Below, in pieces: positions 75-13,516 of a stretch of DNA of 13,549 nucleotides; position 1 is the stretch's first letter; each line of letters opens with the position of its first letter. Location: the NCBI GenBank assembly GCA_030591825.1, contig JAUVAG010000005.1, positions 1 through 13,549 of the forward strand, given 5' to 3'. This DNA comes from Dethiosulfatibacter sp. Its GTDB lineage: Bacteria > Bacillota > Clostridia > Tissierellales > Dethiosulfatibacteraceae. The notes below the pieces were generated by a model. It was not told the DNA's origin. It saw only the letters and a list, made by a program, of their open reading frames with translations, and did not search any database. Made by a program: the position numbers and the translations under genes.

Positions 75-81
75 GCTGAAT
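1..81 (+). repeat. Direct repeat, copy 1 (mpg tail)
   Basis: Positions 1-81 match 955-1035 at a constant offset of 954 bases with two differences (71 G versus A, 75 G versus T). Similarity stops abruptly after 81. The left limit is the window edge, so the repeat may be longer. It brackets the toxin-antitoxin pair. Confidence 0.95.
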
Positions 82-178: not shown

Positions 179-198
179 ATATTTAAGAGGTGATGATA

Positions 199-474
199 GT
201 GATTAACCAATTCGAGCAAATGATTTTGCCTATAACTGAATTCAGGAAGAATATGACTAAAATTCTTGAGAAGCTTACTGCTCCAAAGATTATTATGAAT
301 AGAGACAAGCCCCAGGCTGTCTTGGTCCCATACGAGATTTATAGGCTAATGGAAGAAAAACTGGAAGAACAAATGGATACAATACTCTCGAATGTTGCAG
401 CAGAGAGAGTCAAGGAATCAGAAGCTGAGTATGTTACCCATGATGAATTCTGGAAAGACATGGGTATAGAGTGA
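199..474 (+). CDS. Type II antitoxin, Phd/YefM family
   Basis: This encodes a 91-residue protein beginning MINQFEQM if translation starts at GTG 199. That start is chosen because AGAGG at 186-190 lies 8 bases before it, whereas GTG 190 and ATG 193 are too close to that ribosome site. The segment ILPITEFRKNMTKILEKL is the classic Phd/YefM N-terminal DNA-binding fold, followed by IIMNRDKPQAVLVPYEIY, the strand-and-helix block of the family. The acidic C-terminal half is expected to wrap and neutralise the toxin. The stop codon TGA 472-474 overlaps the toxin ATG at 474, so the two genes are translationally coupled. By family knowledge the protein neutralises the toxin and represses the operon. 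Confidence 0.85.
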   Translation: MINQFEQMILPITEFRKNMTKILEKLTAPKIIMNRDKPQAVLVPYEIYRLMEEKLEEQMDTILSNVAAERVKESEAEYVTHDEFWKDMGIE

Positions 475-779
475 TGGTATTCGAGATCGTATACCATGAA
501 AAAGTCCGCAAGGATATCAAGGATTTGAGACTTAACAGAACCCAGCTTGAAAAGCTGAAGAAAAAGATTGAGAGTATTTCCCGAAATCCATATCCAAAGG
601 AAAACGGAGGTCTTGGAGAACCTTTAAAAGGTACATTGAAGGGACTAATGAAATTCAGATTTGACAATGACTACAGGGTTGTATATAGATTGGTCAGGGA
701 AGAGGGACAGATGAAGATAATTGTCATAGGATTAAGGGCCGACAGTCTTGTATACAGGAAAGCTGAAAAAAGGAACTGA
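474..779 (+). CDS. Type II toxin, RelE/ParE superfamily
   Basis: This is a 101-residue basic protein starting at ATG 474, which shares its A with the antitoxin stop codon (an alternative in-frame GTG is at 471). The N-terminal strand FEIVYHEKVRKDIKDL, the basic helix LEKLKKKIESI, and the block LGEPLKGTLKGLMKFRF followed by YRVVYRL and KIIVIGLRADSLVYRKA give the normal order of RelE/ParE-fold elements. The length is typical. RelE members cut mRNA in the ribosome and ParE members poison gyrase; the C-terminal R-x-x-x-VYRKA pattern suits a RelE-like mRNA interferase, but the subgroup is not certain. No terminator follows before the mpg remnant 33 bases downstream. Confidence 0.85.
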   Translation: MVFEIVYHEKVRKDIKDLRLNRTQLEKLKKKIESISRNPYPKENGGLGEPLKGTLKGLMKFRFDNDYRVVYRLVREEGQMKIIVIGLRADSLVYRKAEKRN

Positions 780-812: not shown

Positions 813-1028
813 ATGATAAATATGAAAAACAATATAAAAAAACTGGACAGAGAATTTTACGACAGACCGACCCTTGATGTTGCAAGGGATCTTTTAGGGG
901 AGGGGCTTTACCTGTATGATGACGGATACAATGATTTCAACATAGAGACTGGAAAGAGGATCAATATAGACTATGCCGAGGAAGCCAGGGATTTTATGTG
1001 GAGATTCAATCTCGTAGCAAAATCATAA
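813..1028 (+). pseudogene. mpg: Internally deleted DNA-3-methyladenine glycosylase
   Basis: The open frame codes for 71 residues from ATG 813 (AGGAAA at 800-805 is a fair ribosome site; ATG 822 and GTG 792 are alternatives). Residues near the start, [19 protein letters not shown], are the MPG-family N-terminus (family LDRxFFxRPTLEVARDLLGK). They are joined in frame to [19 protein letters not shown] and [13 protein letters not shown], which belong to the C-terminal end of the family. Normal members are about 190-205 residues long. Roughly 130 residues are missing, including the VETEAY region with the catalytic glutamate and the base-flipping tyrosine, so base excision is not expected. The joint lies around 893-912. 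It is most likely a dead copy produced by internal deletion after duplication of the mpg region. Confidence 0.75.
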
Positions 1029-1035
1029 TCTGAAT
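955..1035 (+). repeat. Direct repeat, copy 2 (mpg tail)
   Basis: This is the second copy of the 81-base repeat at 1-81 (79 of 81 identical). It encodes the end of the mpg remnant and seven bases past its stop codon. Confidence 0.95.
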
Positions 1036-1058
1036 AGTGGACAACAGCAAAATAAAAT

Positions 1059-1097
1059 CATCATGGACTTATGGAAGAGTCTTATGATGGTTTTTTT
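1059..1097 (+). terminator. Rho-independent terminator after the mpg remnant
   Basis: CATCAT (1059-1064) and GACT pair with AGTC and ATGATG (1084-1089) through a small internal loop. A run of seven T follows at 1091-1097. It would end transcription of the toxin-antitoxin/mpg unit. Confidence 0.7.
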
Positions 1098-1123
1098 CTT
1101 GGTATTAGATTGATTTTCAGTTT

Positions 1124-1152
1124 ACTATATCATCAAAACCTATGACTAACAA
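1124..1152 (-). promoter_or_regulatory. Promoter-like element repeated upstream of ispA
   Basis: Read on the minus strand this gives TTGTTA, 17 bases, TATAGT. The blocks TATATCATCAAAA and AACAATTT (plus strand, 1126-1138 and 1148-1155) recur with the same 9-base gap at 3968-3980 and 3990-3997, where they form the probable ispA promoter. No minus-strand gene lies downstream of this copy, so it is either a relic or drives antisense RNA into the terminator and mpg remnant. Confidence 0.35.
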
Positions 1153-1164
1153 TTTGAAAAAACG

Positions 1165-1193
1165 TTGATAAACCAGTAGTTCAAGGAAATAAT
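1165..1193 (+). promoter_or_regulatory. Promoter of the secreted-protein gene pair
   Basis: TTGATA (1165-1170) and AATAAT (1188-1193) are separated by 17 bases; each box is one base from the sigma-A consensus. The transcript would start near 1200, giving a leader of about 108 bases before ATG 1308. The leader is A-rich with one small hairpin (ACTTTT/AAAAGT, about 1219-1234). No known riboswitch was recognised in the 1101-1307 gap. Confidence 0.5.
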
Positions 1194-1307
1194 GGGATAA
1201 TGTTACAAAAAGGTAATAAAAAACTTTTCGAAAAAGTGTAGCAAAAAGGCCAAAAAAATTGATTTATATAGTGAAGGGGTAAATATCTTGGAGGAGGTGA
1301 TTCAAAT

Positions 1308-1733
1308 ATGGTACTGGATAGAAGATGCATGTTCGTCATTTTTATGGCTGTTGTTTTACTGGGCTTATCACTGATATCTGCAAATGCAGCGGAGTTTGAG
1401 AAAGAGATTATTACACCAAAGTTTTCTTATATCAATTCTTTTTATAATGACTTCGAAATATCTGATTCCGGAAATGTTTCTGTTTCGTCATACCTGAATG
1501 TGGATAATTCAAATCAGGTAAAGATAACAGGATATTTGCAGCAATTCAATGATGGAAGTTGGAAGACAGTTAAGAGCTGGTCAAACACCAGCAGTGGAAA
1601 TGATGTAGTGCTGAAAAAAGAATGGACTGTTGCAAGTGGGTATACTTATAGGTATGTTTCTTATGGGTTTGTTTATGTAGGTGGGTCTATGGTAGAGAGT
1701 ACGAGGAATGAGAGTAGTAAGATATATTACTAG
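1308..1733 (+). CDS. Small exported protein of unknown function
   Basis: This encodes a 141-residue protein. ATG 1308 follows a very strong ribosome site, GGAGGAGGTGAT (1290-1301). Residues 1-27 form a signal peptide: the basic VLDRR, a hydrophobic FVIFMAVVLLGLSLI core, and a likely cleavage in SANAA before EFEK. The mature part (about 113 residues) is rich in Ser, Asn, Tyr and Val and alternates in a beta-strand-like way (NVSVSSYLNV, QVKITGYLQQF, YTYRYVSYGFVYV). It resembles the small secreted beta-rich proteins seen in many Firmicutes (possibly DUF6147-like), but that comparison is from memory and weak. There is no cysteine in the mature part, no LPXTG anchor and no catalytic motif. It is the first gene of a pair with the next ORF, 27 bases downstream. 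Confidence 0.65.
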   Translation: MVLDRRCMFVIFMAVVLLGLSLISANAAEFEKEIITPKFSYINSFYNDFEISDSGNVSVSSYLNVDNSNQVKITGYLQQFNDGSWKTVKSWSNTSSGNDVVLKKEWTVASGYTYRYVSYGFVYVGGSMVESTRNESSKIYY

Positions 1734-1760
1734 AGGGATTTAAAAAATTTGGAGGAAAAA

Positions 1761-2942
1761 ATGAAGAAAAAAATTATTAGTTTAGCTTTGATAGTTAGTC
1801 TATTGACATCTCTAAATACAGTTTTTGCATCAGGGCAAGAATTGAACAAGGAAAATACTGACAATAATTCAAGTTATTATTATTCATTGGAATTGAATAA
1901 TTCTTTTAATAAGGATTATCAATTGTCAGAAAAAGCATCTGATAAATTCAATATTATTGATGCTAAAGGTTTAGACGGTAACCTGGAGTTCAATATTGAG
2001 ATGACGGAAAACGAATCTCGTGATGAAACAGGCAATGATACAGTTTTAGCTATTAGCAAAGGAAGTGTGACAATTAACAGTGTAAAATATCCTTTTGAAG
2101 CAGAAGGTTATTTGCACAAAATCGCAGAGGATGGAAATATCATTTATTTAGGGGGATTAAAAGGTTATTTAAACAACTCAAAAGATCAATCTGATATGAT
2201 AATTCTTTCAATACACTGGATGCCAGACAGTAATAAAATTTCAGTTCCGATTACATTTGGTTATGATGATGAAAAAGACAGTATGCCATTTGTTATAAAG
2301 TTTGGAGAGATCTTTGTTGAAGCGCAAAATGCTGTTAAGCATATTTTAATTGAAAACAAGACTATAGATAACTTAAAAAGCGTGGATTTAAGTGAGTATG
2401 CAGTTAATCAAACGAAATCATCGAATGGACCTTATGATCCACAGTATAGAGATAAAGATACTCAATACTCAGGAGGCGTAGGAATCGCACTTTATTCTCC
2501 GCTGAAAATAGAACCGAACTCTGGAAATACAGGTATGGCAGGAGCCAAAATATGGGCTAACAAGACTAAGTTGACTTCATATGCTTCAAATGCAGGATAT
2601 ACACCCTATAGCAGTACTGCGGCAGGATGTTGGGATGATGTATATCTTACAATAAGGTCAAATAGCTCAGAAACTGATTTCAAAAATGAATGTAGTCCTA
2701 CAAATACAGACCAAACTGTAACAATTCCTATTTGGTTTAGTGCACAGGGGCAATTAATTACTTTGAGTCTAGATTTAACACTTAATTCAATAACAACCAC
2801 ACTCTATTCAGGCGGATCTTATGGTTATGACTATGCTACAAGATGGAAGTTTAAAAAGTTTGCTCCTATGAATGAATTATTTGATAGTTCATCAACACCG
2901 GAGGAATCCGATACTGGAGGTTTAGCAGTAAGAGCAGGATGA
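1761..2942 (+). CDS. Exported protein of unknown function
   Basis: This encodes a 393-residue protein starting at ATG 1761, 5 bases after GGAGG (1751-1755); the earlier in-frame TTG 1749 overlaps that ribosome site and is rejected. A signal peptide is clear: KKK, then IISLALIVSLLTSL, with cleavage probably after TVFA or VFAS. The mature protein is polar and Asn/Ser/Asp-rich, with two cysteines (in AAGCWDD and NECSPT) that could form a disulfide outside the cell. The C-terminal half has many short beta-like stretches and glycine/tyrosine clusters (LYSGGSYGYDY). No enzyme motif, sorting signal or repeat domain is recognised. Its position directly behind the smaller exported protein, with no terminator between them, suggests they are co-transcribed and may act together at the cell surface. 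The function is not known to me. Confidence 0.65.
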   Translation: MKKKIISLALIVSLLTSLNTVFASGQELNKENTDNNSSYYYSLELNNSFNKDYQLSEKASDKFNIIDAKGLDGNLEFNIEMTENESRDETGNDTVLAISKGSVTINSVKYPFEAEGYLHKIAEDGNIIYLGGLKGYLNNSKDQSDMIILSIHWMPDSNKISVPITFGYDDEKDSMPFVIKFGEIFVEAQNAVKHILIENKTIDNLKSVDLSEYAVNQTKSSNGPYDPQYRDKDTQYSGGVGIALYSPLKIEPNSGNTGMAGAKIWANKTKLTSYASNAGYTPYSSTAAGCWDDVYLTIRSNSSETDFKNECSPTNTDQTVTIPIWFSAQGQLITLSLDLTLNSITTTLYSGGSYGYDYATRWKFKKFAPMNELFDSSSTPEESDTGGLAVRAG

Positions 2943-2984
2943 TTGAGAGTTTGGAAAAAGCAGATACTGTGTCAAATTGATAAT

Positions 2985-3029
2985 AAAGCTCACGTTGCAG
3001 ACAATGAATTTGTTTGAAACGCGAGCTTT
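2985..3029. terminator. Bidirectional terminator between the secreted-protein operon and ispA
   Basis: AAAGCTCACGTT (2985-2996) pairs with AACGCGAGCTTT (3018-3029), 12 base pairs with one A-C mismatch. It is flanked by A-rich sequence on the left and GTTTATT on the right. It sits between convergent genes and probably serves both. Confidence 0.65.
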
Positions 3030-3041
3030 GTTTATTATCTT

Positions 3042-3926
3042 CTAATTTTTACGTTTAAGAAGGTATTCAGCTATTTCTCTTAATCTTTCGGCCCTTTCTC
3101 CAAAAATTTCCAGACTGGATACTGCCTTATCAGTATAATCTTCAAGAATCTCCTGAGATTTTTCCAGTCCCAGAAGAGTTACATAGGTAAGTTTGTCGTT
3201 TTTCTCATCGCTGCCTATAGGCTTTCCAAGCTCTTCTTCGTCTGCTGTGAAGTCAAGAATGTCATCCTTGACCTGGAAGGCAAGACCAAGATAGTGTGCA
3301 TAATCTGAAAGCTTTGATATTTCTTCTTCTGTAGCACCTCCTGCTGTAGCTCCAATTTCACAGGCTGCCTTTATGAGTGCACCTGTCTTTAGCTTGTGCA
3401 TGTATTCCAGATATTCAAGGTTTCTTTCCTCTACAAACATATCTGTTACCTGTCCGCCTATCATTCCTTCGGTTCCTGAAGAATTCGAAAGTATTTCAAG
3501 AGACTTAAGTATCTTTTCGGCTGGAATAGCTATAGTGGAGATGTTATTTAAAACAGTCTCGAAAGCCTTGTTAAGGAGTCCGTCTCCTGCAAGTATTGCC
3601 AGGGCATCTCCGTATACCTTGTGGTTTGTTGATTTTCCTCTTCTGAAGTCATCATCATCCATTGCAGGCAGGTCGTCGTGTATGAGGGAGTAGGTATGTA
3701 TCATCTCAATGGCGCAGGCAAAGGGCATGATTGAGTTTTCGTTGTCATTGAACATATTGAAGGTTTCCATCATTAGAACCGGTCTTATTCTCTTACCTCC
3801 TGCAAAGAGGCTGTATCTCATGCTTTCATAGATTGCTTTTTGTCTGTTGTCTTTAAGTGGTAAATATATATCCAGGTGTTTTTCTGTTATTTTTATTTTG
3901 CTGTTTAGCCATGTTTTGAATTCCAT
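3042..3926 (-). CDS. ispA: Farnesyl diphosphate synthase (polyprenyl synthetase family)
   Basis: This 294-residue protein condenses isopentenyl diphosphate with dimethylallyl and geranyl diphosphate to make farnesyl diphosphate, the precursor of undecaprenyl carrier lipid and quinone tails. All family landmarks are present: GGKRIRP at 43-49; the first aspartate-rich motif DDLPAMDDDDFRRG from residue 84, with Tyr79 five residues before it (the C15-type arrangement of E. coli IspA); GTEGMIGGQVTDM near 151-163; and the second motif DDILD at 221-225, followed by GKPIGSDEKNDKLTYV. Length is normal. ATG 3926 follows GCGAGG at 3935-3940. In many Firmicutes ispA lies with xseB and dxs; here it stands alone, convergent with the secreted-protein pair and divergent from the symporter. 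It appears intact. Confidence 0.95.
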   Translation of the reverse strand: MEFKTWLNSKIKITEKHLDIYLPLKDNRQKAIYESMRYSLFAGGKRIRPVLMMETFNMFNDNENSIMPFACAIEMIHTYSLIHDDLPAMDDDDFRRGKSTNHKVYGDALAILAGDGLLNKAFETVLNNISTIAIPAEKILKSLEILSNSSGTEGMIGGQVTDMFVEERNLEYLEYMHKLKTGALIKAACEIGATAGGATEEEISKLSDYAHYLGLAFQVKDDILDFTADEEELGKPIGSDEKNDKLTYVTLLGLEKSQEILEDYTDKAVSSLEIFGERAERLREIAEYLLKRKN

Positions 3927-3965
3927 AATATTTTCCTCGCATTATATATAGTAGTAAATTAGCTT

Positions 3966-3994
3966 ATTATATCATCAAAATACACAGTGAACAA
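3966..3994 (-). promoter_or_regulatory. Probable ispA promoter
   Basis: On the minus strand TTGTTC (3989-3994) and TATAAT (3966-3971) are separated by 17 bases, placing the start about 32 bases before the ispA ATG. The element is repeated at 1124-1152. Confidence 0.5.
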
Positions 3995-4026
3995 TTTAAA
4001 ATAATGAAGAATTGGATATTGACTTG

Positions 4027-4035
4027 TGCTATAAT
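4027..4035 (+). promoter_or_regulatory. Extended -10 promoter of the symporter gene
   Basis: TGCTATAAT at 4027-4035 is a perfect extended -10 element; no good -35 box stands 17 bases upstream. The transcript would start near 4042, about 52 bases before ATG 4094. Confidence 0.5.
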
Positions 4036-4093
4036 TACAGCAATGAATAGATGAACATTAATCGAAAATCTTATTAAGCAACCGGAGGAAATT

Positions 4094-5479
4094 ATGCAAA
4101 ACGGGTCCTATTTAATAAGCACTCTTATAACTTTAATAATAGTTTCAATAATGGGAATAAATGCAAGCAAAAATGTTAAGAACTCTACCGATTTTGCAAT
4201 CGGAGGTCGAAATTTTTCAAGCAGAAAGGTTGCAGCATCTATAATAGGAACACTAGTTGGAGGAGCTTCAACAATCGGTACGGCACAGGCCGCCTTTGTA
4301 AGCGGATTCAATGGAATGTGGTTCACCTTGGGAGCTAGTCTTGGATGTCTGTTTCTTGGTCTTTTCTTGGCAAGACCCTTAAGGGAAGCTAACATATTCA
4401 CAGTTCCGGAATTCATGATCAAATTTTACGGAAACAGATCAAGGATGACTTCCAGCATAATTTCATCAATGGCAATTTTTGTTCATATTACGGGACAGGT
4501 GCTTGCATCTGTCGCCATTTTCACTTCATTGTTCAACATCGGTGAAAACCTGGCTGTATTCATAACAATGATGCTGATAGTTTCATATATCTTTTTCGGA
4601 GGATTTTTGGGTTCCAGTGTTGTAGGATCCATAAAGACTGTACTTCTTTATGCAACACTCTCCATAAGTGCTTATGTTGTTTTGAAGGAATTTGGAGGTG
4701 CCGGGAATTTTGTTGCAGCTTATCCAAAGGATCCATGGTTCAATCTATTCAGTGAGGGCATGCTCAGTGGACTGGCTCAAGGATTTGCACTTGTTGTTGG
4801 AGTTTGCTCCACCCAGACTTATCTTCAGGCAATATTTTCAGGGAGAACTGCGGGAGAATCACAAAAGGGAGCATTCTTGTCGGCACTGCTCATTCCTCCC
4901 ATTGGGCTTATTTGTACGATGGTTGGAATGTTCATGCACAATATGCATCCTGAAATCATTTCAAAACAGGCTCTTCCCCTCTTTGTTATAAATTATCTTA
5001 ATCCTTTAATCGGAGGTATTGTCATAGGAACTTTGATTATATCTGTTGTTGCAACTGGTGCAGGGCTTACTCTTGGCATAAGCACAATGATAAGCAGGGA
5101 CATATACAAAACTGTAATAAATGTGAGGGCTAATAGCAAGCAGGAACTTCTGTCTCTCAGAATATCGGTTCTTGGAATACTGTTTGTCACATCCTTGATG
5201 GTTGTGTTCAATCTAGATTCTTTGATACTTAAATGGGCTTTTCTCTCTATGACATTGAGGGGCACGGTAGTATTTATGCCTTTGATTGTTGCGGTAATAA
5301 TGAAGGAAAGAACTCCATACAAGGCGGGACTTTTGTCTATGATTTTTGCTCCATTAGTGACAATAGTATTGACTGTTTTCAATCTTACAGATATTGATCC
5401 TCTTTATATTGGAATGGGTACCAGCTTGATTATCTTTCTTGCGTTTTTAATATTTGGCAGGGAAAACAAGACGGTATAA
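4094..5479 (+). CDS. Sodium:solute symporter family (SSS) transporter
   Basis: This is a 461-residue integral membrane protein with about 12-13 hydrophobic segments. ATG 4094 lies 5 bases after CGGAGG (4083-4088). Features of the SSS family are visible: an early TDFAIGGRNFSSRKVAASIIGTLVGG stretch (the family's loop and first helical pair, with the helix-breaking GGAST), the mid-protein GFALVVGVCSTQTYLQAIFSGRTAGE block around residues 230-255, and ATGAGLTLGISTMISRDIYK near 320-340, equivalent to the conserved TAS...RD-YK region. It couples uptake of an organic solute to sodium; the substrate cannot be read from sequence. Length is slightly short of the usual 470-500 but no block is obviously lost, unlike the genes just downstream. 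The frame remains open past its TAA straight into the YeiH fragment. Confidence 0.85.
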   Translation: MQNGSYLISTLITLIIVSIMGINASKNVKNSTDFAIGGRNFSSRKVAASIIGTLVGGASTIGTAQAAFVSGFNGMWFTLGASLGCLFLGLFLARPLREANIFTVPEFMIKFYGNRSRMTSSIISSMAIFVHITGQVLASVAIFTSLFNIGENLAVFITMMLIVSYIFFGGFLGSSVVGSIKTVLLYATLSISAYVVLKEFGGAGNFVAAYPKDPWFNLFSEGMLSGLAQGFALVVGVCSTQTYLQAIFSGRTAGESQKGAFLSALLIPPIGLICTMVGMFMHNMHPEIISKQALPLFVINYLNPLIGGIVIGTLIISVVATGAGLTLGISTMISRDIYKTVINVRANSKQELLSLRISVLGILFVTSLMVVFNLDSLILKWAFLSMTLRGTVVFMPLIVAVIMKERTPYKAGLLSMIFAPLVTIVLTVFNLTDIDPLYIGMGTSLIIFLAFLIFGRENKTV

Positions 5480-5758
5480 TTAATATCAGGTACAGCCTTT
5501 GTACTGGCAATATCATATCTGTCGATATTAATAAACGACATTTTAAAGGAATACATAAACCTTGAAGCCCTTACTATAGCAATAATCATTGGGATAGTTT
5601 ACAACAATGCAGTTGGAACCCAGAGGGTATTCCATCAGGGAGTAAGCTTTTCACTGAAAAAACTTTTGAAAATAGGAATCGTACTTCTTGAATTTAAACT
5701 GGATTTCAACTCTCTGCTCATGCTGGGGCCTAAGATTCTAATGACAATGTCATGGTGA
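5480..5758 (+). pseudogene. Fragment of a YeiH/UPF0324-family membrane protein
   Basis: Reading from 5480, directly after the symporter stop and in the same frame, an open stretch of 92 codons ends at TGA 5756-5758. It contains LTIAIIIGIVYNNAV, then FHQGVSFSLKKLLKIGIVLL and FKLDFNSLLMLGPKIL. This matches the N-terminal quarter of the YeiH/UPF0324 family (family pattern AIxLGIxxGN...PGIxFSxKxLLRxGIxLLGFRLSLxxIxxLG), putative membrane exporters of about 320-350 residues. There is no start codon with a ribosome site: the first in-frame ATG is deep in the fragment at 5720. The C-terminal three quarters are absent. Both ends are therefore lost and it cannot make the transporter. It abuts and overlaps the LytS-like frame at 5752. 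Confidence 0.7.
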
Positions 5759-6834
5759 CTGCCGGCTTCATGTTGATGAATCTTGCAAATAAATTTGGCA
5801 CTCTTTTTATGTTTGCCTTCATAGTATCAAATCTTAAACCTGCCAGGGAATTCATATATAGGAAGCCAGTCAGCGTTAAGGATAAGGTACTGCTTTCAAT
5901 TGTCTTTGGAATTTTCGGAATAATTGGTACTTATTTCAGTGTTGAATTCAACGGAGCACTTATTAATACAAGAATTATTGGAGTTGCTACAGGTGGACTT
6001 CTTGGAGGTCCCGCAGTGGATCTTGTAAAGGATATTTGGATACCAATGGTAATCATAAATTCCATCGGTCTTGCACTTCTATTCCTTGTAATTGAAAATA
6101 TATTTAGAGACAGGGATAGGATAGGAGCAGAGCAGGTTAATCTTTCCATCAATATAATAGACAAACTGCTTCCTTATATAAAGGGAGGATTAAGCGAAGA
6201 AAATTCGACAGTCATAACGGATACTATTTATGAGATGACAAGTTTTGATGAAGTAACTATAACTGCCCGAGAGAAAATCATAGCTCATTCAGGAATTCAT
6301 ATTGAAAACCATGAATATGGCAATAAAGTGAATACTGAAAGATTTAATACAATAATGGAAAGTGGTGAAACTCTGCAGTTTGACTCTACAATAATATCCC
6401 CTATTAGGGATGGTGACGATATTATAGGTACAGTGAAGTACTACAAGAAGCCTGAAAACATAATGAACAATGTTGACGTTGTGGATTATATGGTAAAGCT
6501 GATTATGGAAGAAAGGCTAAAGAAGTGCATAGACAGGGCAAGATTGAATATGGGTAAGAAAACCGAAGAGATTAAGCCGGCTCCAGCCAAGAAGATGACA
6601 AGCCTTGTAGTAGCAAAAAACGACAAGCTCTTTTTATTGAAGCTCAAGGAGATAGTGTATCTTGAATATATTGAAGGCAAGATAAGGGTGTTTACAGAGA
6701 AAGATGAATACTCTCTTAATCAGACAATGAAATCTTTCGTTGAAGAAAAGGGAAATGGGTTTATTAGAACCCATAAGAGCTTCATAGTTAATATTGACTA
6801 TATAAAAGAATTTAAAAAGAAATTGAACATATAA
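5752..6834 (+). CDS. LytS-LytR chimera: 5TM sensor fragment, GAF-like region and LytTR domain
   Basis: This 360-residue frame looks like a collapsed lytS-lytR pair. Residues 7-90 (MLMNLANKFG to NGALINTRIIGVATGGLLGGP) are the start of the 5TMR-LYT sensor. WIPMVIINSIGLALLFLVIENIFR (96-119) is the last helix of that sensor, so about 60-70 residues are missing at 86-95. Residues 125-235 match the LytS GAF-like region but lack its usual Cys-rich insert near 211. The histidine kinase domain is absent; EERLKKCIDRA (253-263) looks like the linker after a LytR receiver domain, and 283-353 is a LytTR DNA-binding domain (FIRTHKSFIVNIDYIKE). The domain ends early: the segment before a final YIKEFKKKLNI is missing. 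There is no ribosome site before ATG 5752 or the more natural ATG 5770. It is probably a pseudogene, although the frame is open throughout; if made, it would be a membrane-bound LytTR protein. Confidence 0.6.
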   Translation: MVTAGFMLMNLANKFGTLFMFAFIVSNLKPAREFIYRKPVSVKDKVLLSIVFGIFGIIGTYFSVEFNGALINTRIIGVATGGLLGGPAVDLVKDIWIPMVIINSIGLALLFLVIENIFRDRDRIGAEQVNLSINIIDKLLPYIKGGLSEENSTVITDTIYEMTSFDEVTITAREKIIAHSGIHIENHEYGNKVNTERFNTIMESGETLQFDSTIISPIRDGDDIIGTVKYYKKPENIMNNVDVVDYMVKLIMEERLKKCIDRARLNMGKKTEEIKPAPAKKMTSLVVAKNDKLFLLKLKEIVYLEYIEGKIRVFTEKDEYSLNQTMKSFVEEKGNGFIRTHKSFIVNIDYIKEFKKKLNI

Positions 6835-6961
6835 TCAACAAGATTTCAACAAGACATATTGCATCTTGACCACAACATAATGCAACATAACTAAATAGTA
6901 TTCTAAAGAACGTTTTCTTGTATTAAACTACAACTAAGAAAAAAACTTGGAGGTAGAAGAT
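6835..6961. repeat. Intergenic region with short direct and inverted repeats
   Basis: TCAACAAGA occurs at 6835-6843 and 6846-6854, CAACATAA at 6873-6880 and 6883-6890, and TTGCAT (6859-6864) is inverted as ATGCAA (6880-6885). A weak promoter TTGACC-17-AACTAA may start at 6866. The repeats could be regulator sites for the downstream transport gene, but they fit no binding consensus I can name. Confidence 0.3.
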
Positions 6962-7714
6962 ATGAGAAAACTTTCTTTATTATTGGCAATAATTATGGTA
7001 TTTACAGTAGTTGGAACAGGATGTTCCAGTTCAAATGGGGATATTGCTTCGGAAAATGGAGAGGCACCAAAGTCCAATCAGTTTGTAACATTGACAGGAT
7101 TCGGACTTAAGCTTGCAGGAGCAATATTATTCCTTGGAAATGGAGTATTATTCCTGACATTGTTCTTCACAATGATAGCCTGCATAGTACTGGGAATGGG
7201 ACTTCCATCAATACCGGCATATATTATTACAGCAACAATGGCGGCACCTGCCCTTGCTAAAATGGGAGTACCACCACTTGTATCGCATATGTTTGTATTC
7301 TACTTTGGAATGCTTGCAAACCTTACTCCACCAGTAGCGCTGGCAGCCTTTGCAGGAGCTGGAATAGCAGGAGGAAACCCGGCAAAAACAGGAATTCAGG
7401 CAGTCAAACTTGCATCGGCAGGATTCGTAGTACCTTATATATTTGCATTCTCACCTGCACTTTTGATGATAGATGCATCTCCTTTAACAATAGTAATAGC
7501 GGCAGCGACTGCAATAATTGGTGTAATATCACATGGAGCTGCAGTAGAAGGATATATGCTAGATAGACTTTCAGCACTTTACAGAATTGGACTATTTGCT
7601 TCGGCAATACTTCTCATGACACCTGGATTACCTACTGATATAATTGGACTTCTGATATTCCTTGGAGTTGTGACAGCACAGAAAATGACAAAGGGAAAAC
7701 TTGTAGAAGCTTAA
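6962..7714 (+). CDS. TAXI-receptor signal peptide fused to C-terminal part of a TRAP fused permease
   Basis: This encodes a 250-residue protein from ATG 6962, 8 bases after GGAGG (6949-6953); the in-frame TTG 6947 is upstream of that site and is rejected. Residues 1-40 are the lipoprotein signal and linker of a TAXI-type TRAP solute receptor (MRKLSLLLAIIMVFTVVGTGC, then Ser/Gly/Glu-rich sequence and PKSNQFVTLT). From about residue 44 the sequence is the C-terminal part of a TRAP 4TM/12TM fused permease: GFGLKLAGAIL, LGMGLPSIPAYIITATMAAPAL, HMFVFYFGMLANLTPPVALAAFAGAGIAG. A normal receptor is about 320-340 residues and a fused permease about 620-680, so most of both is missing. VTLTG, expected in both parents, lies at the joint (7085-7099). 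The permease DctM-like core is incomplete, so transport is unlikely. Probably a deletion product. Confidence 0.7.
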   Translation: MRKLSLLLAIIMVFTVVGTGCSSSNGDIASENGEAPKSNQFVTLTGFGLKLAGAILFLGNGVLFLTLFFTMIACIVLGMGLPSIPAYIITATMAAPALAKMGVPPLVSHMFVFYFGMLANLTPPVALAAFAGAGIAGGNPAKTGIQAVKLASAGFVVPYIFAFSPALLMIDASPLTIVIAAATAIIGVISHGAAVEGYMLDRLSALYRIGLFASAILLMTPGLPTDIIGLLIFLGVVTAQKMTKGKLVEA

Positions 7715-7739
7715 ATTTCATATCTCCCCCCATAAAGAT

Positions 7740-7770
7740 AGCCCTGAAGAATCATCTTCAGGGCTGTTTT
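7740..7770. terminator. Rho-independent terminator
   Basis: A perfect 11-base stem, AGCCCTGAAGA (7740-7750) with TCTTCAGGGCT (7755-7765), has a loop ATCA and is followed by GTTTT. It lies between convergent genes and mainly serves the plus-strand TRAP chimera, only 5 bases before the DUF1850 stop codon. Confidence 0.9.
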
Positions 7771-7775
7771 GATTA

Positions 7776-8270
7776 TCATCTGTTGCATATAAACCTTGAA
7801 ATCAGTCCGTAGCCATTTATGCTCTCAGTAAATATGTTGATCCTGTCTCCGTCGGGAACCATTTCATATAGGTTGTATTCCCTGTCCTTGAAGATAAATA
7901 TGTGCTTGGCAAAGGCTGAAATACCATAGGGAAGAAGGGGCATTACCTGGTTTATTCCTCCGTAGGTAATATATCCATCTTCAATATAAACCTCGGTGCC
8001 TGTGGCATCTGGAACTCCTGCTCCGGAATTCTGAAACCTTGTCCTGTCTAAAACCATATTGTATTCATCATCTATTCTGAATATTTCTTCCCAGGGGGTC
8101 AGTTCAACTGAATGAATACATTTCATGGTAAACTCATCTCCTGGTTCTATAGTGAAAAACAGAACTGTATTGCCTGTTTGATAATGTTCGAGAGTGAGAA
8201 TGTCAACCTCGATAAAGAGAGGAACAAGAAGTATTGCAATAATTAGTATAATTGTAAGTATCTTTTTCAA
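7776..8270 (-). CDS. DUF1850-domain protein linked to TRAP-TAXI transporters
   Basis: This encodes a 164-residue protein. The start is TTG 8270, chosen because GGAGG (minus strand, 8277-8281) stands 6 bases before it; the upstream ATG meets a stop after three codons. Residues 1-23 are a hydrophobic signal or membrane anchor. The DUF1850 hallmark blocks are present: CIHSVELTPWEEIFRI at 51-66 and LDRTRFQNSGAGVP at 74-87, followed by GYITYGGINQVMPLLPYGISAFAKH. In many bacteria this gene lies between the TAXI receptor and the TRAP fused permease, and it is thought to assist that transporter outside the membrane (its biochemical role is unknown). Here it is intact but inverted and convergent with the collapsed receptor-permease gene, so it has lost its partner locally. 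Confidence 0.85.
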   Translation of the reverse strand: MKKILTIILIIAILLVPLFIEVDILTLEHYQTGNTVLFFTIEPGDEFTMKCIHSVELTPWEEIFRIDDEYNMVLDRTRFQNSGAGVPDATGTEVYIEDGYITYGGINQVMPLLPYGISAFAKHIFIFKDREYNLYEMVPDGDRINIFTESINGYGLISRFICNR

Positions 8271-8797
8271 ATTATGCCTCCATGATTTTGGTTTGATGTT
8301 TTGATTTTGTCGTCATAGATGATACTCCATATTTATATAATAGTATTAATTCATTAAAGGGGCAATATATATTGGATATGTTGCAGTATTTTTTATAGTC
8401 TAAGAAAGTTAAAAATGCGTAATCCCTTGAAGCGTTTGTATTACGCGCATAAGGAAACTTTCTACGACCTCTTGATATCCGCATTAGTCACATGAAGCGT
8501 GAATTGGATAACGCAGCATAGCTGCTTTCTTGATAAGGTACATAAAAATATAATGTAAATAATAGACTCAAAAGATTTTATCTTTCGGGTTTTGTTGCCT
8601 AGGAAAACGTTTGAACCGCTGGTGAATCGATGAGTCGTCAGCGGTTCGATGATTGTTAAATCTTTAATAGCGTTGATTCAACGGTGTTGTGGTTTTTTTG
8701 ATAATGAGGATGAGTATTATCGGACTCAAAGTAGGTAGGGTTAACTTTGTGAAAATCAAAAACGTTGACATTACTCGGTTTCATCCATTTAAAAAGT
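8271..8797. other. Gene-free region rich in inverted repeats upstream of the CoA-transferase operon
   Basis: No convincing gene lies between the DUF1850 start and 8888. Visible structures are: a palindrome CAATATATATTG (8363-8374); a nested pair of inverted repeats, AGAAAGTT/AACTTTCT (8403-8410, 8456-8463) around ATGCGTAAT/ATTACGCGCAT; a hairpin GCAGC-ATA-GCTGC then TTTCTT (8513-8531), possibly a weak terminator; GAACCGCTG/CAGCGGTTC (8613-8621, 8639-8647); CGTTGA-T-TCAACG (8671-8683); and GATAAT/ATTATC (8700-8721). TGAAGCGT occurs at 8429-8436 and 8493-8500. The 8400-8530 part looks richer in GC than its surroundings. I could not match it to a known riboswitch or small RNA. Confidence 0.5.
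8613..8683 (+). promoter_or_regulatory. Candidate enhancer (upstream activator) sites
   Basis: Two dyads, GAACCGCTG/CAGCGGTTC (8613-8647) and CGTTGA-T-TCAACG (8671-8683), lie about 140-210 bases before the predicted sigma-54 start near 8825. This is the usual distance for enhancer sites of sigma-54 activators. AACGTTGA, a relative of the second half-site, recurs at 8760-8767. Assignment is by position and symmetry only. Confidence 0.4.
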
Positions 8798-8798
8798 T

Positions 8799-8814
8799 TG
8801 GCACGGGAATTGCA
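8799..8814 (+). promoter_or_regulatory. Sigma-54 promoter of the CoA-transferase/BCCT operon
   Basis: TGGCACGGGAATTGCA (8799-8814) matches the sigma-54 consensus TGGCACG-N4-TTGCW at every fixed position, with the -24 GG at 8800-8801 and the -12 GC at 8812-8813. The transcript would start near 8825, leaving a leader of about 63 bases. Such promoters need an AAA+ activator bound upstream, so the operon should be tightly inducible. Confidence 0.9.
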
Positions 8815-8887
8815 ATGATATAATTGAACTCAACAAAAGGGTTAAAACATATAAAAACTATGAATTGTTTTGAAAGGAGTACAATGT

Positions 8888-10081
8888 ATGAGACCGTTAG
8901 AAGGAATTAAAGTATTGGATTTTACTCAAGCTCACGCAGGAAGTTTGGCTACAATGATATTGGCAGACTTTGGAGCTGAAGTTGTTAAGATTGAAAGAGC
9001 AGGTGTTGGTGACCTGGCAAGATATTGGGCACCGTTCAAGGAAGGCAACAGTGCATACTATGCATACCTTAACAGAGGAAAGAAAAGCATAAGCTTGAAT
9101 GCATCGACAGAAGAGGGAAAAGAAATAATTAAAAAGCTAGTAGCAGAAGCAGATGTTGTATGTGAAAACTTTAAATATGGAAGTATGAAAAGACTGGGTC
9201 TTGATTATGAAGAATTAAAGAAAATTAATCCTACATTAATATATGCTGCATTGAATGGTTTTGGACAGACAGGACCTTTTAAGGAAGTAATAGGACTTGA
9301 CCTTCAACTTCAAGCAATGAGTGGACTTATGGATAGAACAGGATTTCCAGATGGAGCTCCTACAAAAGTTGGAGCAGCAATGGGAGACCAGTTCAGTGGA
9401 ACATACCTTGCAATGGCAATAAACCTTGCATTGGTACATAGAAAGAAAACAGGTGAAGGACAGATGATAGACGTTGCAATACTTGACTCATTGTTCTCAA
9501 TACTTGAAGCTGCACCAATGACCAAGTGTTTAAGAGGAAGCGTTCCACCAAGAGTTGGAAATTCTTATCCTTCAATTTCACCATATGATGCACTAGAAAC
9601 AAATGACGGATATGTTGCAGTAGGTATTTCTACAGACAGACAATGGCAGAAATTCTGTACGGCGTTGGGTGTTGAAGAACTTGCAAATGATCCTAGATAT
9701 ATTAACAATGAAAAAAGAGGCGACAACTACGAGTCTGGACTTAAAGATGCTCTTGAGGCAGTAACAAAGAAAATGTCAAAATTCGACATTGAAGACAAGT
9801 TGAGAGAAGTAAGACTTGCTTGCGGAGCTGTTTATACAGTTAAGGAAGCAATGGGAACTGAACATGTTGCAGCAAGAGATATGCTTGTAGAAGTTGAAGA
9901 CAAAGCTCTTGGAAACATAAAAGTTCCAGGAATTGTAATAAAAATGGGAGAGACACCAGGTGAAATTACTACGGGCTCACCTTTACTAGGAGAGCATACT
10001 GAGCTTTACTTGAACAAGATGGGATATTCTGCAGACCAGATTAAGGGACTTCAGGAAAACAAAATTATAGAAATATCATAA
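8888..10081 (+). CDS. Class III CoA transferase, CaiB/BaiF family (first of pair)
   Basis: This encodes a 397-residue protein. ATG 8888 is 8 bases after AGGAG (8875-8879); the in-frame TTG 8870 overlaps that site. Members of this family move coenzyme A from an acyl-CoA donor to a carboxylic acid through an aspartyl-CoA intermediate. Visible hallmarks are LEGIKVLDFTQAHAG and LADFGAEVVKIERAG near the N-terminus, NRGKKSISL at 62-70, YAALNGFGQTGP at 119-130, and VGAAMGDQFSG with the probable catalytic Asp167. The length is normal for the family. It is about as similar to the next protein as paralogous subunits are, with matching spacing of all motifs. The gap to the next gene is 22 bases. The substrate is unknown; a carnitine/betaine-type or other short carboxylic acid is inferred from the BCCT neighbour. 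Confidence 0.9.
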   Translation: MRPLEGIKVLDFTQAHAGSLATMILADFGAEVVKIERAGVGDLARYWAPFKEGNSAYYAYLNRGKKSISLNASTEEGKEIIKKLVAEADVVCENFKYGSMKRLGLDYEELKKINPTLIYAALNGFGQTGPFKEVIGLDLQLQAMSGLMDRTGFPDGAPTKVGAAMGDQFSGTYLAMAINLALVHRKKTGEGQMIDVAILDSLFSILEAAPMTKCLRGSVPPRVGNSYPSISPYDALETNDGYVAVGISTDRQWQKFCTALGVEELANDPRYINNEKRGDNYESGLKDALEAVTKKMSKFDIEDKLREVRLACGAVYTVKEAMGTEHVAARDMLVEVEDKALGNIKVPGIVIKMGETPGEITTGSPLLGEHTELYLNKMGYSADQIKGLQENKIIEIS

Positions 10082-10103
10082 ATATAAAGGAAGGAGAGAA
10101 ACC

Positions 10104-11288
10104 ATGAAAGTATTAGAAGGCGTTAAAGTAATAGATTTCACACAGGCATACAGTGGTCCATTTTGCACTATGCAGCTTGCTGACTTCGGTGCTGAAGTAA
10201 TAAAAATTGAAAGAAGAGGATCTGGAGATCAGTCACGTGAATGGACTCCAATAGTAAATGGAAACAGTGGATACTATGCTGCTATAAACAGAAATAAAAA
10301 GGGAGTTTCCCTTGATATAGCTGATGATGAGGGAAGAAAAGTAATACTTGACCTTGTTAAGGATGCAGATATAATTGTACAAAACTTCAAGGTAGGTACT
10401 CTTGATAAATTTGGTCTTGGATATGAAGACATGAAAAAAGTGAATCCGGAAATAATCTATGCTTCCATATCAGGATTTGGACAAACAGGTCCATTGAGCC
10501 ACCTTGCAGCATATGATAACGTTGTTCAGGCAATGACTGGAATCATGGAAATGACTGGAGATCCTGATGGAATTCCAACAAAGGTTGGTCCTGCAATAGG
10601 AGACAACTTTACAGGTCTTCATATGGCAACAGCAATAACAATGGCATATTTTCACAAGCTTAATACAGGAAAAGGACAGCAGCTTGATGTTGCAATGTAT
10701 GATGCAATATTCTCTATCCTTGAAAGTCCAATACTTTTTGAGACTGTTCTTGGAGAAACTAGTACTAGAACAGGAAATGCAGATCCAGCAACACTTGTAC
10801 CTTATGATGTATACAAATGTAAGGATGGATATTTCTCAGCAGGTATAGCAAGTGATTCAGGATATCCAAAATTCTGCCACGCTATAAACATGCCTGAACT
10901 TATTGAAGATCCAAGATTCGTAGAAAATGAAATAAGATGTACAAACTACGAACCTTTTACTGAAATAGTTTCGGATTTCTTTGCAAAGAGAACAAGAAGC
11001 GAGTTAGCAGATGTATTTGTAGCAGCTAAAGTGCCTAATGCACCAGTATTCGACATACCAGAAGTAATGGAACATCCTCAGATTAAGGCTAGAGACATGA
11101 TGCAGGAACTTAGTGATCCAGGAGTAGGAGAACACCTTGCAATAGGAAATCCTATGAAACTTAGCAAAACTCCAGCAGTTCTTGAACATGGAGCACCTCT
11201 TCTTGGACAGGATACAGAAGCTGTATTGAAAAGTATAGGATACAGTGACGGTAAAATCAAAGAGTTATACAGCAAAGAAGTTATTTAA
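10104..11288 (+). CDS. Class III CoA transferase, CaiB/BaiF family (second of pair)
   Basis: This encodes a 394-residue protein starting at ATG 10104 after GGAAGGAGAG. It carries the same landmarks as its upstream paralogue at the same positions: LEGVKVIDFTQAYSGP, LADFGAEVIKIERRGSGDQSR, NRNKKGVSLDI, YASISGFGQTGP, and VGPAIGDNFTG with Asp167 as the likely nucleophile. The C-terminal segment PNAPVFDIPEVMEHPQIKARDM is the family's conserved closing-loop region and is closer to the consensus than the matching segment of the first protein. Adjacent pairs in this family can form mixed complexes (benzylsuccinate CoA-transferase BbsEF, succinyl-CoA:malate SmtAB) or act separately. Since both keep the aspartate, either is possible here. 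The gene is co-transcribed with its neighbours from the sigma-54 promoter; a long stem-loop follows its stop codon. Confidence 0.9.
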   Translation: MKVLEGVKVIDFTQAYSGPFCTMQLADFGAEVIKIERRGSGDQSREWTPIVNGNSGYYAAINRNKKGVSLDIADDEGRKVILDLVKDADIIVQNFKVGTLDKFGLGYEDMKKVNPEIIYASISGFGQTGPLSHLAAYDNVVQAMTGIMEMTGDPDGIPTKVGPAIGDNFTGLHMATAITMAYFHKLNTGKGQQLDVAMYDAIFSILESPILFETVLGETSTRTGNADPATLVPYDVYKCKDGYFSAGIASDSGYPKFCHAINMPELIEDPRFVENEIRCTNYEPFTEIVSDFFAKRTRSELADVFVAAKVPNAPVFDIPEVMEHPQIKARDMMQELSDPGVGEHLAIGNPMKLSKTPAVLEHGAPLLGQDTEAVLKSIGYSDGKIKELYSKEVI

Positions 11289-11300
11289 TATAAGAATTTA

Positions 11301-11344
11301 CATTCCATTACCTGACATGATATATTTATGTCAGGTATGGAATG
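11301..11344 (+). other. Intercistronic stem-loop before the BCCT gene
   Basis: CATTCCATTACCTGACAT (11301-11318) pairs with ATGTCAGGTATGGAATG (11328-11344): 17 pairs with one bulged T and a 9-base loop. No T-run follows, so it is not a standard terminator. It ends 6 bases before the BCCT ribosome site (GGAGG, 11351-11355) and may protect or process the mRNA, making expression of the transferases and the carrier unequal. Confidence 0.8.
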
Positions 11345-11363
11345 ATAATAGGAGGAATTATTA

Positions 11364-12977
11364 ATGAATAAAAATAATAAAAATTCTAATCTTTTTGAAA
11401 GATATGAAGTTTTACTTATGAGTATAAGCGTACTACTTATTATTTCGATTGTAGGATATCTCACTATGTATCCTGAACAGGGAAAGATTGCGGCAAATTC
11501 GGTTCTTAGCATGCTTACCAACACCTTTGGTTCAACAATGCAATTATTTACAGTTTTCGTATTAGGATTTTTGGTAATACTTGCCCTGTCAAAATATGGA
11601 GATATTCGTCTTGGTAAAGAAAAGCCTCAATACTCTACAATAAGTTGGGTAGCAATGATGTTCTTCTGCGGTAACGGCGCTGGAACAGTTTACTGGGCTT
11701 TTCTTGAGTGGGGATACCATTTCAATGCGGCTCCTCAACTTAACGGAGTGGCAGTAAGCGAGGCAGTAAACTATGAACTTTCAATGGCATATACATTCTT
11801 TGACTGGGGTCCTTCAGCGTGGGCACTGCTCTGTGTGTTTGTACTTCCATTTGCTTATCACTATTATATTAAGGGAGACAGCGAGCTTAAATTTAGTGTG
11901 CTTTGCAAATATTCTCTTGGTGAAAAGGCAGTTAGAGGATGGTTTGGAAAAATAGTAGACTTCTTGTTCATATTTGCAGCAGTTGGATCTATAAGTATAA
12001 CTGCAGGTACTTCTGCATCAACTATTTCAGCAACCCTTGCAGACCTTATTGGAATAAATCAGAGCTTTACATTGACAACAATGGTTCTTGTTGGTGTTGC
12101 ACTTCTTTATTCTGCCAGTTCCTTTGTTGGAATTGAAAAGGGAATGAGAAGGATAAGTGATTCAAACGTTTATCTTTGCATGATGCTTCTTGGATTTATT
12201 TTCATTGTAGGACCTACTCAATATATTATTGATTCAATGGTAAACTCAATGGGAATATTGTCACAGGAATATTTAAGAATGAGTCTTTGGACAGACCCTG
12301 TTGCAAGAACAGGATATCCTCAGGGATGGACGGCTTTCTATCTTGTTTACTGGCTTACATTTGGACCATTTACGGGTCTTTTTGTAGCAAAGATTTCAAA
12401 GGGAAGAAAAATCAAGGAAGTTATTGCAAACATGCTAATAAGTGGTCCTTTGGGATTATTCTTATTCTTCGGAGTAATTGGAGGATATCAGCAATCGCTT
12501 AGAATCAAGGGAATAATTGACATACCTAACATGCTGGCAACTGGACAAGGGGAAAATATTGCAACTGCAACATTAAATGCTCTTCCTCTTTCAAAGATAG
12601 TTATGGTTGTTTATCTCTTTGTTATAGTATTGTTCCTTGCTACAACTCTTGATGCAGCTTCATTTACTCTTTCGTCTACGGTGTCTAAGAAACTTAAGGC
12701 TACTCAAGAGCCTAACCCATTTCTAAAGCTTATATGGTGTCTTGTACTTGTAGCTCTTCCTATAGCAATATCATTCATAGGAACAGATATAAATACAATA
12801 AAATCCATAGTTCTTTCGACAGGGCTGCCCCTTGTGATTATTCTTGTAATAATCTATCACGGTTTCCTTAGAGAATTGTTTGCTGACTTTGGAAAAATGA
12901 CAAGAGAAGACATAATAAAGAAAACAGGAATAGAAGAGTTAGATGAAGAGGTAGCAATAACAAGCGTAAATAACTAA
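11364..12977 (+). CDS. BCCT-family transporter (betaine/carnitine/choline type)
   Basis: This is a 537-residue membrane protein with about 12 transmembrane helices, starting at ATG 11364, 8 bases after GGAGG. BCCT carriers take up or exchange zwitterionic quaternary-ammonium compounds. Family blocks are clear: FFCGNGAGTVYWAFLEWGYHFNAAP at 100-124, SFVGIEKGMRRISDSNVYLC at 253-272, the signature GWTAFYLVYWLTFGPFTGLFVAKISKGRKIKEVI at 321-354, and ATTLDAASFTLSS at 426-438. The usual Trp-rich core of the signature (family YWxWWxxWxPF) reads YWLTFGPF here, so the aromatic cage for the ammonium group is altered and the substrate may not be a classical betaine. No long osmosensing C-terminal extension is present, favouring a catabolic uptake or exchange role over osmoprotection. 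It is the third gene of the sigma-54 operon. Confidence 0.9.
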   Translation: MNKNNKNSNLFERYEVLLMSISVLLIISIVGYLTMYPEQGKIAANSVLSMLTNTFGSTMQLFTVFVLGFLVILALSKYGDIRLGKEKPQYSTISWVAMMFFCGNGAGTVYWAFLEWGYHFNAAPQLNGVAVSEAVNYELSMAYTFFDWGPSAWALLCVFVLPFAYHYYIKGDSELKFSVLCKYSLGEKAVRGWFGKIVDFLFIFAAVGSISITAGTSASTISATLADLIGINQSFTLTTMVLVGVALLYSASSFVGIEKGMRRISDSNVYLCMMLLGFIFIVGPTQYIIDSMVNSMGILSQEYLRMSLWTDPVARTGYPQGWTAFYLVYWLTFGPFTGLFVAKISKGRKIKEVIANMLISGPLGLFLFFGVIGGYQQSLRIKGIIDIPNMLATGQGENIATATLNALPLSKIVMVVYLFVIVLFLATTLDAASFTLSSTVSKKLKATQEPNPFLKLIWCLVLVALPIAISFIGTDINTIKSIVLSTGLPLVIILVIIYHGFLRELFADFGKMTREDIIKKTGIEELDEEVAITSVNN

Positions 12978-12994
12978 TATAAATAACTAACATG

Positions 12995-13052
12995 ACTTAA
13001 ACTTCGCACTTAAAAATGACCCTAGGTATTTTTCAAAGTGCGGAGTTTAAGT
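12995..13052 (+). terminator. Very long stem-loop after the BCCT gene
   Basis: ACTTAAACTTCGCACTT (12995-13011) pairs with AAGTGCGGAGTTTAAGT (13036-13052) with one T-G wobble. The stem continues with AAAAAT/ATTTTT and ACC/GGT around a CTA loop. The downstream sequence AAGTTTAATTAAG has only a weak T-run, so termination is plausible but not certain. CATGAC (12991-12996) and GTCATG (13067-13072) form a further outer inverted pair. Confidence 0.55.
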
Positions 13053-13098
13053 TTAATTAAGCTTATGTCATGGCAAATATTTGATGAGGAATGATTTA

Positions 13099-13516
13099 AT
13101 GAAATATAAATGTAAAAAAGAGTGTTTTTCAATTTGGTTCAAAAGACTATCGCTTGCTGGATAATGGTTTTAATAATAGGGATACGGAATGTAAATTTAT
13201 TGTAGTTCGGGATTCGGCAAATAGAATAAATGGTGTTTTTAAGAAAACAATACTTGAAAATTTATTAGTAGTTTCCAATGCCAGGCATTCGGTAATCAAG
13301 AATATTATAAATAGAAATTTTGAGGATGACAACGCAGAAATAACAATAAATAAAATAATGCCTCTCAAAGATGCCAAGTATATAGTGGAACGAGAGTTGA
13401 TTACAAAAGTCATGAATAGAGTTAAAAGTACTTACAAAGCAGCGAAAATTCTTGAAGTTAGTCAGGCGACAATTGCAAGAAAAACAAAAAAATATAATGA
13501 TGAAATTTTCATTTAA
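13099..13516 (+). pseudogene. Remnant of a sigma-54-dependent activator (TyrR-type HTH retained, AAA+ domain missing)
   Basis: A good start, ATG 13099 after GAGGA (13085-13089), opens a frame that stops after 21 codons (TAA 13162-13164). One extra base in the A-run at 13114-13119 would explain this: with one A fewer the frame continues as MKYKCKKSVFQFGSKDYRLLDNG into the long frame ending at TAA 13514-13516. Without a shift, the only start in that frame is TTG 13154 (120 residues, no ribosome site). The C-terminal part, MPLKDAKYIVERELITKVMNR then STYKAAKILEVSQATIARKTKKY, is the helix-turn-helix of PrpR/RocR-like sigma-54 activators that contain a TyrR-type HTH. The preceding 70 residues may be part of a PAS-like sensor. 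The roughly 240-residue AAA+ domain with GESGTGKE and GAFTGA motifs is absent, so it cannot activate sigma-54 polymerase. Confidence 0.65.

Follow-up and report, generated by a model that had tools for sequence, protein, structure and literature searches.

We analysed a 13,549-nucleotide contig from Dethiosulfatibacter sp. (JAUVAG010000005.1, the whole of which is hereafter called the window) and found that its genes for a TAXI–TRAP transporter, the regulators LytS and LytR, YeiH and one copy of mpg survive as pieces, most of them joined in frame after the loss of internal segments. The best explanation, to which we give a probability of about 0.7, is recent decay, through deletions between short direct repeats, of the TAXI–TRAP/LytSR locus and an additional copy of mpg.

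Pieces of the damaged genes and their intact counterparts

The window is the entire contig 38 of its source assembly (G000), a fragmented Dethiosulfatibacter-like genome of 351 contigs and 1.77 Mb that is 68.3% complete. D. aminovorans DSM 17477 (G001), the sole genome of the same genus among the 41 searched, served as the reference; its record NZ_FQZL01000019.1 holds the closest CoA-transferase (89%), and its contig C52 (71518 bases) is colinear with the window at ~76–82% identity in the intact genes. A preliminary description of the window had proposed internal deletions at four or more loci, naming four. DNA alignment to D. aminovorans located them at mpg, YeiH/LytS/LytR and TAXI/TRAP; the remaining locus, taken for a sigma-54 activator, is not a deletion product of this kind and is treated with the neighbouring genes. 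The pieces are as follows.

1 to 81, forward strand: start of the contig, holding the tail of a further mpg copy; its 81 nt match 955–1035 at 98% identity (first 70 exact by reading)
813 to 1028, forward strand: mpg remnant, a head of ~27 codons fused in frame to the tail, with the joint near 888–909
5480 to 5758, forward strand: YeiH stub (PF03601, profile positions 2–87 of 304), between the symporter stop and LytS
5773 to 6025, forward strand: LytS piece 1, the 5TM region; residues encoded by 5773–6009 identical to intact LytS P0122 (79/79)
6017 to 6477, forward strand: LytS piece 2; residues encoded by 6028–6474 identical to P0122 at 146/149
6478 to 6834, forward strand: LytR piece, fused in frame to LytS; 1003 bp, comprising kinase and receiver domains, are gone at this LytS–LytR joint
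6962 to 7099, forward strand: N-terminal stub of the TAXI substrate-binding protein
7088 to 7714, forward strand: C-terminal third of the fused TRAP permease, which continues the TAXI stub in frame

Undeleted versions, which the preliminary description had suggested looking for in other strains, exist in relatives: D. aminovorans has intact open reading frames (ORFs) for LytS (560 amino acids (aa)), LytR (255 aa), TAXI (335 aa) and TRAP (652 aa) as well as an intact mpg, and further intact alleles are P0122, a LytS represented in metagenomes by 5 members on 3 contigs, and the TRAP protein P0233. A near-mode search for close relatives on plasmids gave no match for window positions 5480–7714.

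At the TAXI–TRAP joint, 2263 bp are gone relative to D. aminovorans and the frame is kept; the TRAP piece is identical to P0233 at 204 of 208 residues. Between TRAP and the DUF1850 gene a further 5.8 kb is absent from the window, where D. aminovorans has more ORFs. A second, divergent TAXI gene on another contig of the source assembly (G000:C290, L002) has a full-length 327-aa open frame with 34% identity to D. aminovorans TAXI, which makes the loss of the window's TAXI–TRAP transporter plausible. A 59-bp TRAP-like match lies 1.5 kb from this second gene.

Within the regulators, the joint between the two LytS pieces (near 6017–6028) has lost 237 bp, or 79 codons of the sensor region, in frame. 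Near 6797–6818, towards the LytR C-terminus, 90 bp (30 residues) of the LytTR domain are missing, again in frame. This lost stretch is bounded by YIKE/YIKE repeats, the closest intact protein having DYIKE and NYIKE around the 30 residues, and the Pfam match to LytTR in the resulting LytS/LytR chimaera covers only positions 1–68 of 98. The His_kinase and HATPase_c domains present in P0122 and the Response_reg domain present in P0181, an intact LytR relative, are absent from the chimaera. The YeiH stub, whose earliest in-frame ATG, GTG or TTG lies at 5666, meets LytS out of frame: its own frame reaches a TGA at 5756 and LytS goes on in another. The YeiH match in D. aminovorans is on a different contig, C73.

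As for mpg, 390 bp of the D. aminovorans gene are absent from the window in the DNA alignment, and the remnant matches PF02245 only at positions 144–177 of 181 (26.8 bits; cut-off 27). Of two mpg copies in the window, this one is decaying and the other is the tail at the contig start. A search for an intact mpg elsewhere in the source assembly found none, and the same search also missed the window's own mpg fragment. In D. aminovorans, a cultured isolate, two further in-frame joints lie next to mpg (C52; L086:12523–13293, reverse strand). There, an antitoxin remnant has lost 129 bp internally without a change of frame, and its end continues in frame into the intact mpg, so that a single ORF of 256 aa results, with mpg at residues 70–253.

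Judged from their domain content, the chimaeric ORFs are unlikely to be functional, because they lack the kinase, the receiver, part of LytTR, the greater part of the solute-binding protein and two thirds of the permease. The affected genes would have lost their function.

The damage is local

The preliminary description had suggested counting joints of this kind across the genome. We surveyed a sample of 55 of the 351 contigs of the source assembly (300.7 kb, 48 readable) against 1.24 of the ~4.0 Mb of D. aminovorans, in which small contigs were masked. With 884 D. aminovorans ORFs of at least 150 aa as queries and a threshold of 60% identity, 85 orthologues were recovered: 59 full, 5 broken and 21 running off their contig. 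The window contains all 5 broken orthologues; of the 59 full ones, 53 come from elsewhere, so that 5 of 11 are broken in the window and 0 of 53 on the other sampled contigs (Fisher P = 6e-5, leaving aside the 21 that run off a contig). The reverse survey gave 58 full ORFs of the source assembly and 2 broken ones, both in the window. Insertions and deletions at the DNA level also occur outside the window, some of them from chaining through dispersed repeats; the locality count is that of the protein-level survey.

In this sample of roughly one sixth of the contigs, none of the 53 orthologues that could be scored beyond the window gave a sign of recurrence. Within the sample, the confinement of the damage argues against both a genome-wide mechanism and a habit of the assembler. 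Programmed DNA elimination and an unusual repair pathway had been offered among the possible causes. A process of either kind that cuts genes in frame throughout the genome has the presence of several joints in a single contig in its favour. However, the damage is local in the contigs sampled, the joint sequences differ by eye with no shared boundary motif, and the YeiH–LytS joint is out of frame. We rejected such a process, which these observations, together with the failure to find Ku (see below), make extremely improbable.

Microhomology at the joints and the probable route of deletion

We tested five joints for microhomology, letting D. aminovorans stand in for the lost flanks and drawing 3000 random joints of the same codon phase as the null. 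The 12-bp statistic gave P = 0.012 for mpg, 0.0017 for the LytR C-terminus and 0.0003 for TAXI–TRAP, the last value following removal of a 3-bp lineage indel from the D. aminovorans proxy, a correction not applied to the null joints. On the strictest run statistic mpg reached P = 0.059. For the five joints taken together, the observed 12-bp statistic was reached in 0 of 50000 draws, and the two-mismatch run statistic gave P = 6e-5. The earlier suggestion of microhomology beyond chance thus holds for three of the five testable joints (TAXI–TRAP after the correction of register) and is not supported for the 237-bp LytS deletion and for LytS–LytR. By eye no motif is common to the joints; no motif search was run.

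Replication slippage, single-strand annealing and alternative end joining are textbook routes of deletion between short direct repeats. Our observations resemble such deletions in that three of the five joints tested have short homologies, the orientation is direct and the genomes searched gave no Ku match; they differ in that the window has two joints without detectable homology and that its joints are densely packed. Ku (PF02735) was found in 0 of the 8 genomes of the family (G000–G007, of which G000 is 68% complete), while among 14 controls the control search recovered it in one, B. subtilis. Inspection for end-joining genes, to which the preliminary description had pointed, thus yielded no Ku in these 8 genomes, and we rejected Ku-based end joining. 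With no Ku found, the deletions probably arose by slippage, strand annealing or alternative end joining.

In the sequence of events that we propose, the TAXI–TRAP operon, the LytS/LytR regulators, the YeiH gene and one mpg copy would have lost several internal segments successively, each by one of these three routes acting between short direct repeats. Two factors would have kept their frames open: point decay would have had too little time since the deletions, and short repeats are biased in codon phase.

Open frames and the codon phase of short repeats

We counted six joints inside or between genes, omitting the symporter–YeiH boundary because the symporter ends at its stop codon there. As the preliminary description had stated, most keep the frame: five of the six do (mpg, LytS, LytS–LytR, the LytR C-terminus and TAXI–TRAP), YeiH–LytS being out of frame. 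At an expectation of 1/3 per joint, five of six has P = 0.018.

Short repeats in the coding DNA examined depart from that expectation. Among exact repeats of 8, 9 and 10 bp in the D. aminovorans LytS–LytR–TAXI–TRAP genes, 67%, 71% and 71% of pairs, respectively, are in phase. In the sampled contigs of the source assembly the share is 62% at 8 bp and 70% at 10 bp, and on D. aminovorans contig C54 it is 0.60–0.72 for exact repeats of 8–10 bp. Three unrelated loci, in stretches of Anaerotignum, Natronorubrum and Reyranella, gave 0.56–0.85 over the same lengths (the 10-bp figure for Anaerotignum comprising 21 pairs). At the in-phase rates of the source assembly (0.615–0.70), five of six in frame has P = 0.26–0.42. 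Adding the two D. aminovorans joints raises the count to seven of eight, with P = 0.0026 at 1/3 and 0.12–0.26 at the repeat-phase rates.

Since the codon phase of short repeats agrees in ~60–70% of cases in the coding DNA of this genus, and not in 33%, in-frame joints are unremarkable. Selection for open frames, which had been put forward earlier, is not needed once this bias is counted. A literature search turned up no account of a codon-phase bias of microhomologies, which is not a claim that none exists in print.

Age of the remnants and selection

The LytS and TRAP pieces together differ from their closest intact proteins by 7 amino acids in 436 residues. The LytR piece is identical to P0181, a less close relative and the closest listed, at 100 of 111 residues. 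Relative to D. aminovorans, the ratio of non-synonymous to synonymous substitution rates (dN/dS) is 0.064 for TRAP, 0.058 for LytS piece 1 and 0.062 for LytR, and 0.054–0.073 for six intact neighbours. Branch counts, window versus D. aminovorans, were 7 versus 7 for TRAP, 4 versus 2 for LytS piece 1 and 5 versus 1 for LytR. Relaxed selection is thus hardly evident in the larger pieces; such signs as exist come from LytS piece 2, LytR and the short pieces. The existence elsewhere of near-identical intact LytS and TRAP proteins, together with the low dN/dS of most large pieces, indicates that the damage is recent.

Low dN/dS in most large pieces could also be read as a sign that the chimaeras are new functional genes whose open frames were selected, for example with the LytS sensor region, fused directly to the DNA-binding LytTR domain, forming a membrane-bound regulator. 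The in-frame joints (five of six, or seven of eight with those of D. aminovorans) fit this, as does a LytS–LytR joint that drops kinase plus receiver. However, the LytTR match ends at 68 of 98 with 30 residues lost, 79 sensor codons are gone, and the TAXI–TRAP product retains no more of the binding protein than an N-terminal stub; repeat phase leads one to expect in-frame joints, and a recently intact ancestor can pass on a low dN/dS. We consider new function very unlikely.

A study of bacterial pseudogenes (PMC2916853) reports that the youngest ones of Salmonella are removed too fast for a strictly neutral model, and names short indels of <10 bp and premature stops among the commonest lesions. 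The window resembles young bacterial pseudogenes in its recent inactivation, in the intact alleles of relatives and in loss by deletion; it differs in that its lesions are internal deletions of 90–2263 bp that mostly leave the frame open.

Points against recent decay, and rival origins of the joints

Several observations weigh against recent decay through short repeats. Excess microhomology is lacking at the 237-bp LytS deletion (P = 0.38) and at LytS–LytR (P = 0.66), and without the correction TAXI–TRAP shows no signal either (P = 0.70, 0.71 and 0.997), in which case the five joints jointly give P = 0.010 and 0.021. If the two joints without microhomology are each assigned 1/3, all five in-frame joints have P ~0.03, leaving a small residue unexplained. 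The dN/dS of LytS piece 2 is 0.187 (uncorrected, the synonymous sites being saturated), and the short pieces are also raised: 0.146 for TAXI (44 codons) and 0.176 and 0.167 for mpg (22 and 38 codons). Many large deletions beside 7 changes in 436 residues make stepwise neutral decay look crowded. The LytR piece, with 11 differences in 111 residues from the closest relative listed, is less telling on crowding than the LytS and TRAP pieces. Lastly, the LytS/LytR chimaera (P0121) was found solely in the window's own contig, so that no independent sample confirms the joints; a search for the TAXI/TRAP chimaera gave no independent copy, and it missed even the window's own.

These last results bear on whether the joints are real. 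In an assembly from short reads at low coverage or from amplified DNA, short overlaps might have led to false joins between contig pieces of an intact operon. In keeping with such an artefact, no other contig is known to carry the LytS/LytR chimaera, intact alleles that are nearly identical occur elsewhere, the assembly is fragmented and incomplete, and three joints have short overlaps. The clustering of the damage counts against it, as none of the 53 scoreable orthologues on other sampled contigs is broken. The 48 readable contigs contain no N gaps. Nor does LytS–LytR have a detectable overlap at which to misjoin. The deletions span 90–2263 bp, and 1003–2263 bp exceeds the usual reach of paired ends; amplification chimaeras are mostly inverted, whereas the joints of the window are all in direct orientation. 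Similar joints beside mpg in D. aminovorans, an isolate, also count against an artefact. We regard it as unlikely, and the contig as presumably assembled correctly.

The crowding of the joints raises another reading, in which a single mutational event made most of those from YeiH to TRAP, a nascent strand repeatedly switching template forward at short homologies. Within ~1.6 kb there are five joints (six if the symporter–YeiH boundary is included), colinear and in direct orientation, with pieces of ~250–460 bp, and the LytS and TRAP pieces have only the 7 differences in 436 residues. Separate deletions in a young pseudogene would look alike, however; mpg, ~4.5 kb off, needs an event of its own, two joints have no detectable microhomology, and the 11 differences in 111 LytR residues also count against it. 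Such an origin seems quite unlikely. In its full form, one replication accident with at least five colinear, partly microhomology-assisted forward jumps across a 6–7-kb operon, shredding five genes at once into chimaeric frames that are mostly open, it is marginally less likely still.

Template-switching models (serial replication slippage) have been described for eukaryotes. Like them, the window combines several forward jumps, colinear and with microhomology, within a small region; it differs in being a bacterial locus at which a single event is not shown. If the joints did come from one event, they would provide a bacterial example of serial template switching.

Neighbouring genes and other features

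Between the damaged loci, the genes that the preliminary description had called intact are so: ispA, the symporter, DUF1850, both CoA-transferases and BCCT align over their full or nearly full length, and all save ispA have Pfam matches. Features referred to here or above are:

190 to 474, forward strand: Phd/YefM-type antitoxin (PF02604, E = 2.7e-9; TIGR01552 slightly below its cut-off)
471 to 779, forward strand: RelE/ParE-type toxin ORF (TIGR02385, 40.2 bits; PF05016)
4094 to 5479, forward strand: sodium:solute symporter, intact
7776 to 8270, reverse strand: DUF1850 gene, intact
13103 to 13516, forward strand: Fis-type helix-turn-helix (HTH) ORF, colinear with D. aminovorans open frames and lacking ~75 N-terminal codons

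The toxin is absent beside mpg in D. aminovorans, which may reflect loss there or gain in the lineage of the window. Two ORFs further on (1308–1733 and 1749–2942) have signal-peptide-like starts by eye and no Pfam or NCBIfam match, and the stretch that holds them is ~1.4 kb longer than its D. aminovorans counterpart.

The reading of 13099–13516 as joined parts of a sigma-54 activator did not survive comparison. The HTH ORF aligns to residues 80–215 of a 219-aa and 76–211 of a 215-aa D. aminovorans frame (46% and 45% identity, with a one-residue gap), covering the C-terminal two thirds of each, and its HTH portion matches three shorter D. aminovorans frames at 60–72%. Pfam finds HTH alone in the two longest frames. 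The locus was misread: at most it is a gene truncated at its 5' end, from a small HTH family. Short Fis-type HTH frames (92–219 aa) occur in at least five copies in D. aminovorans (L236, L239, L241, L242 and L243).

A dispersed, intergenic-looking repeat of ~140–270 bp is present at 8381–8581 of the window and, among other places, at L117:1313–1452, L122:1–275 and L199:213–440. A single copy has up to 16 matching places in the sampled contigs of the source assembly, several of them at contig ends. We considered dispersed repeats as a cause of the joints and rejected them: the repeats of at least 40 bp that were seen are the mpg tail and 8381–8581, and neither lies at the operon joints.

Implications for chimaeric reading frames

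The codon-phase bias turns frame-keeping deletions into a checkable rule, as repeats of 8–10 bp in coding DNA are in phase 56–85% of the time in the genomes tried. Deletions between such short repeats would often leave open chimaeric frames without any selection, and such ORFs will appear in metagenome assemblies annotated as odd fusion proteins.

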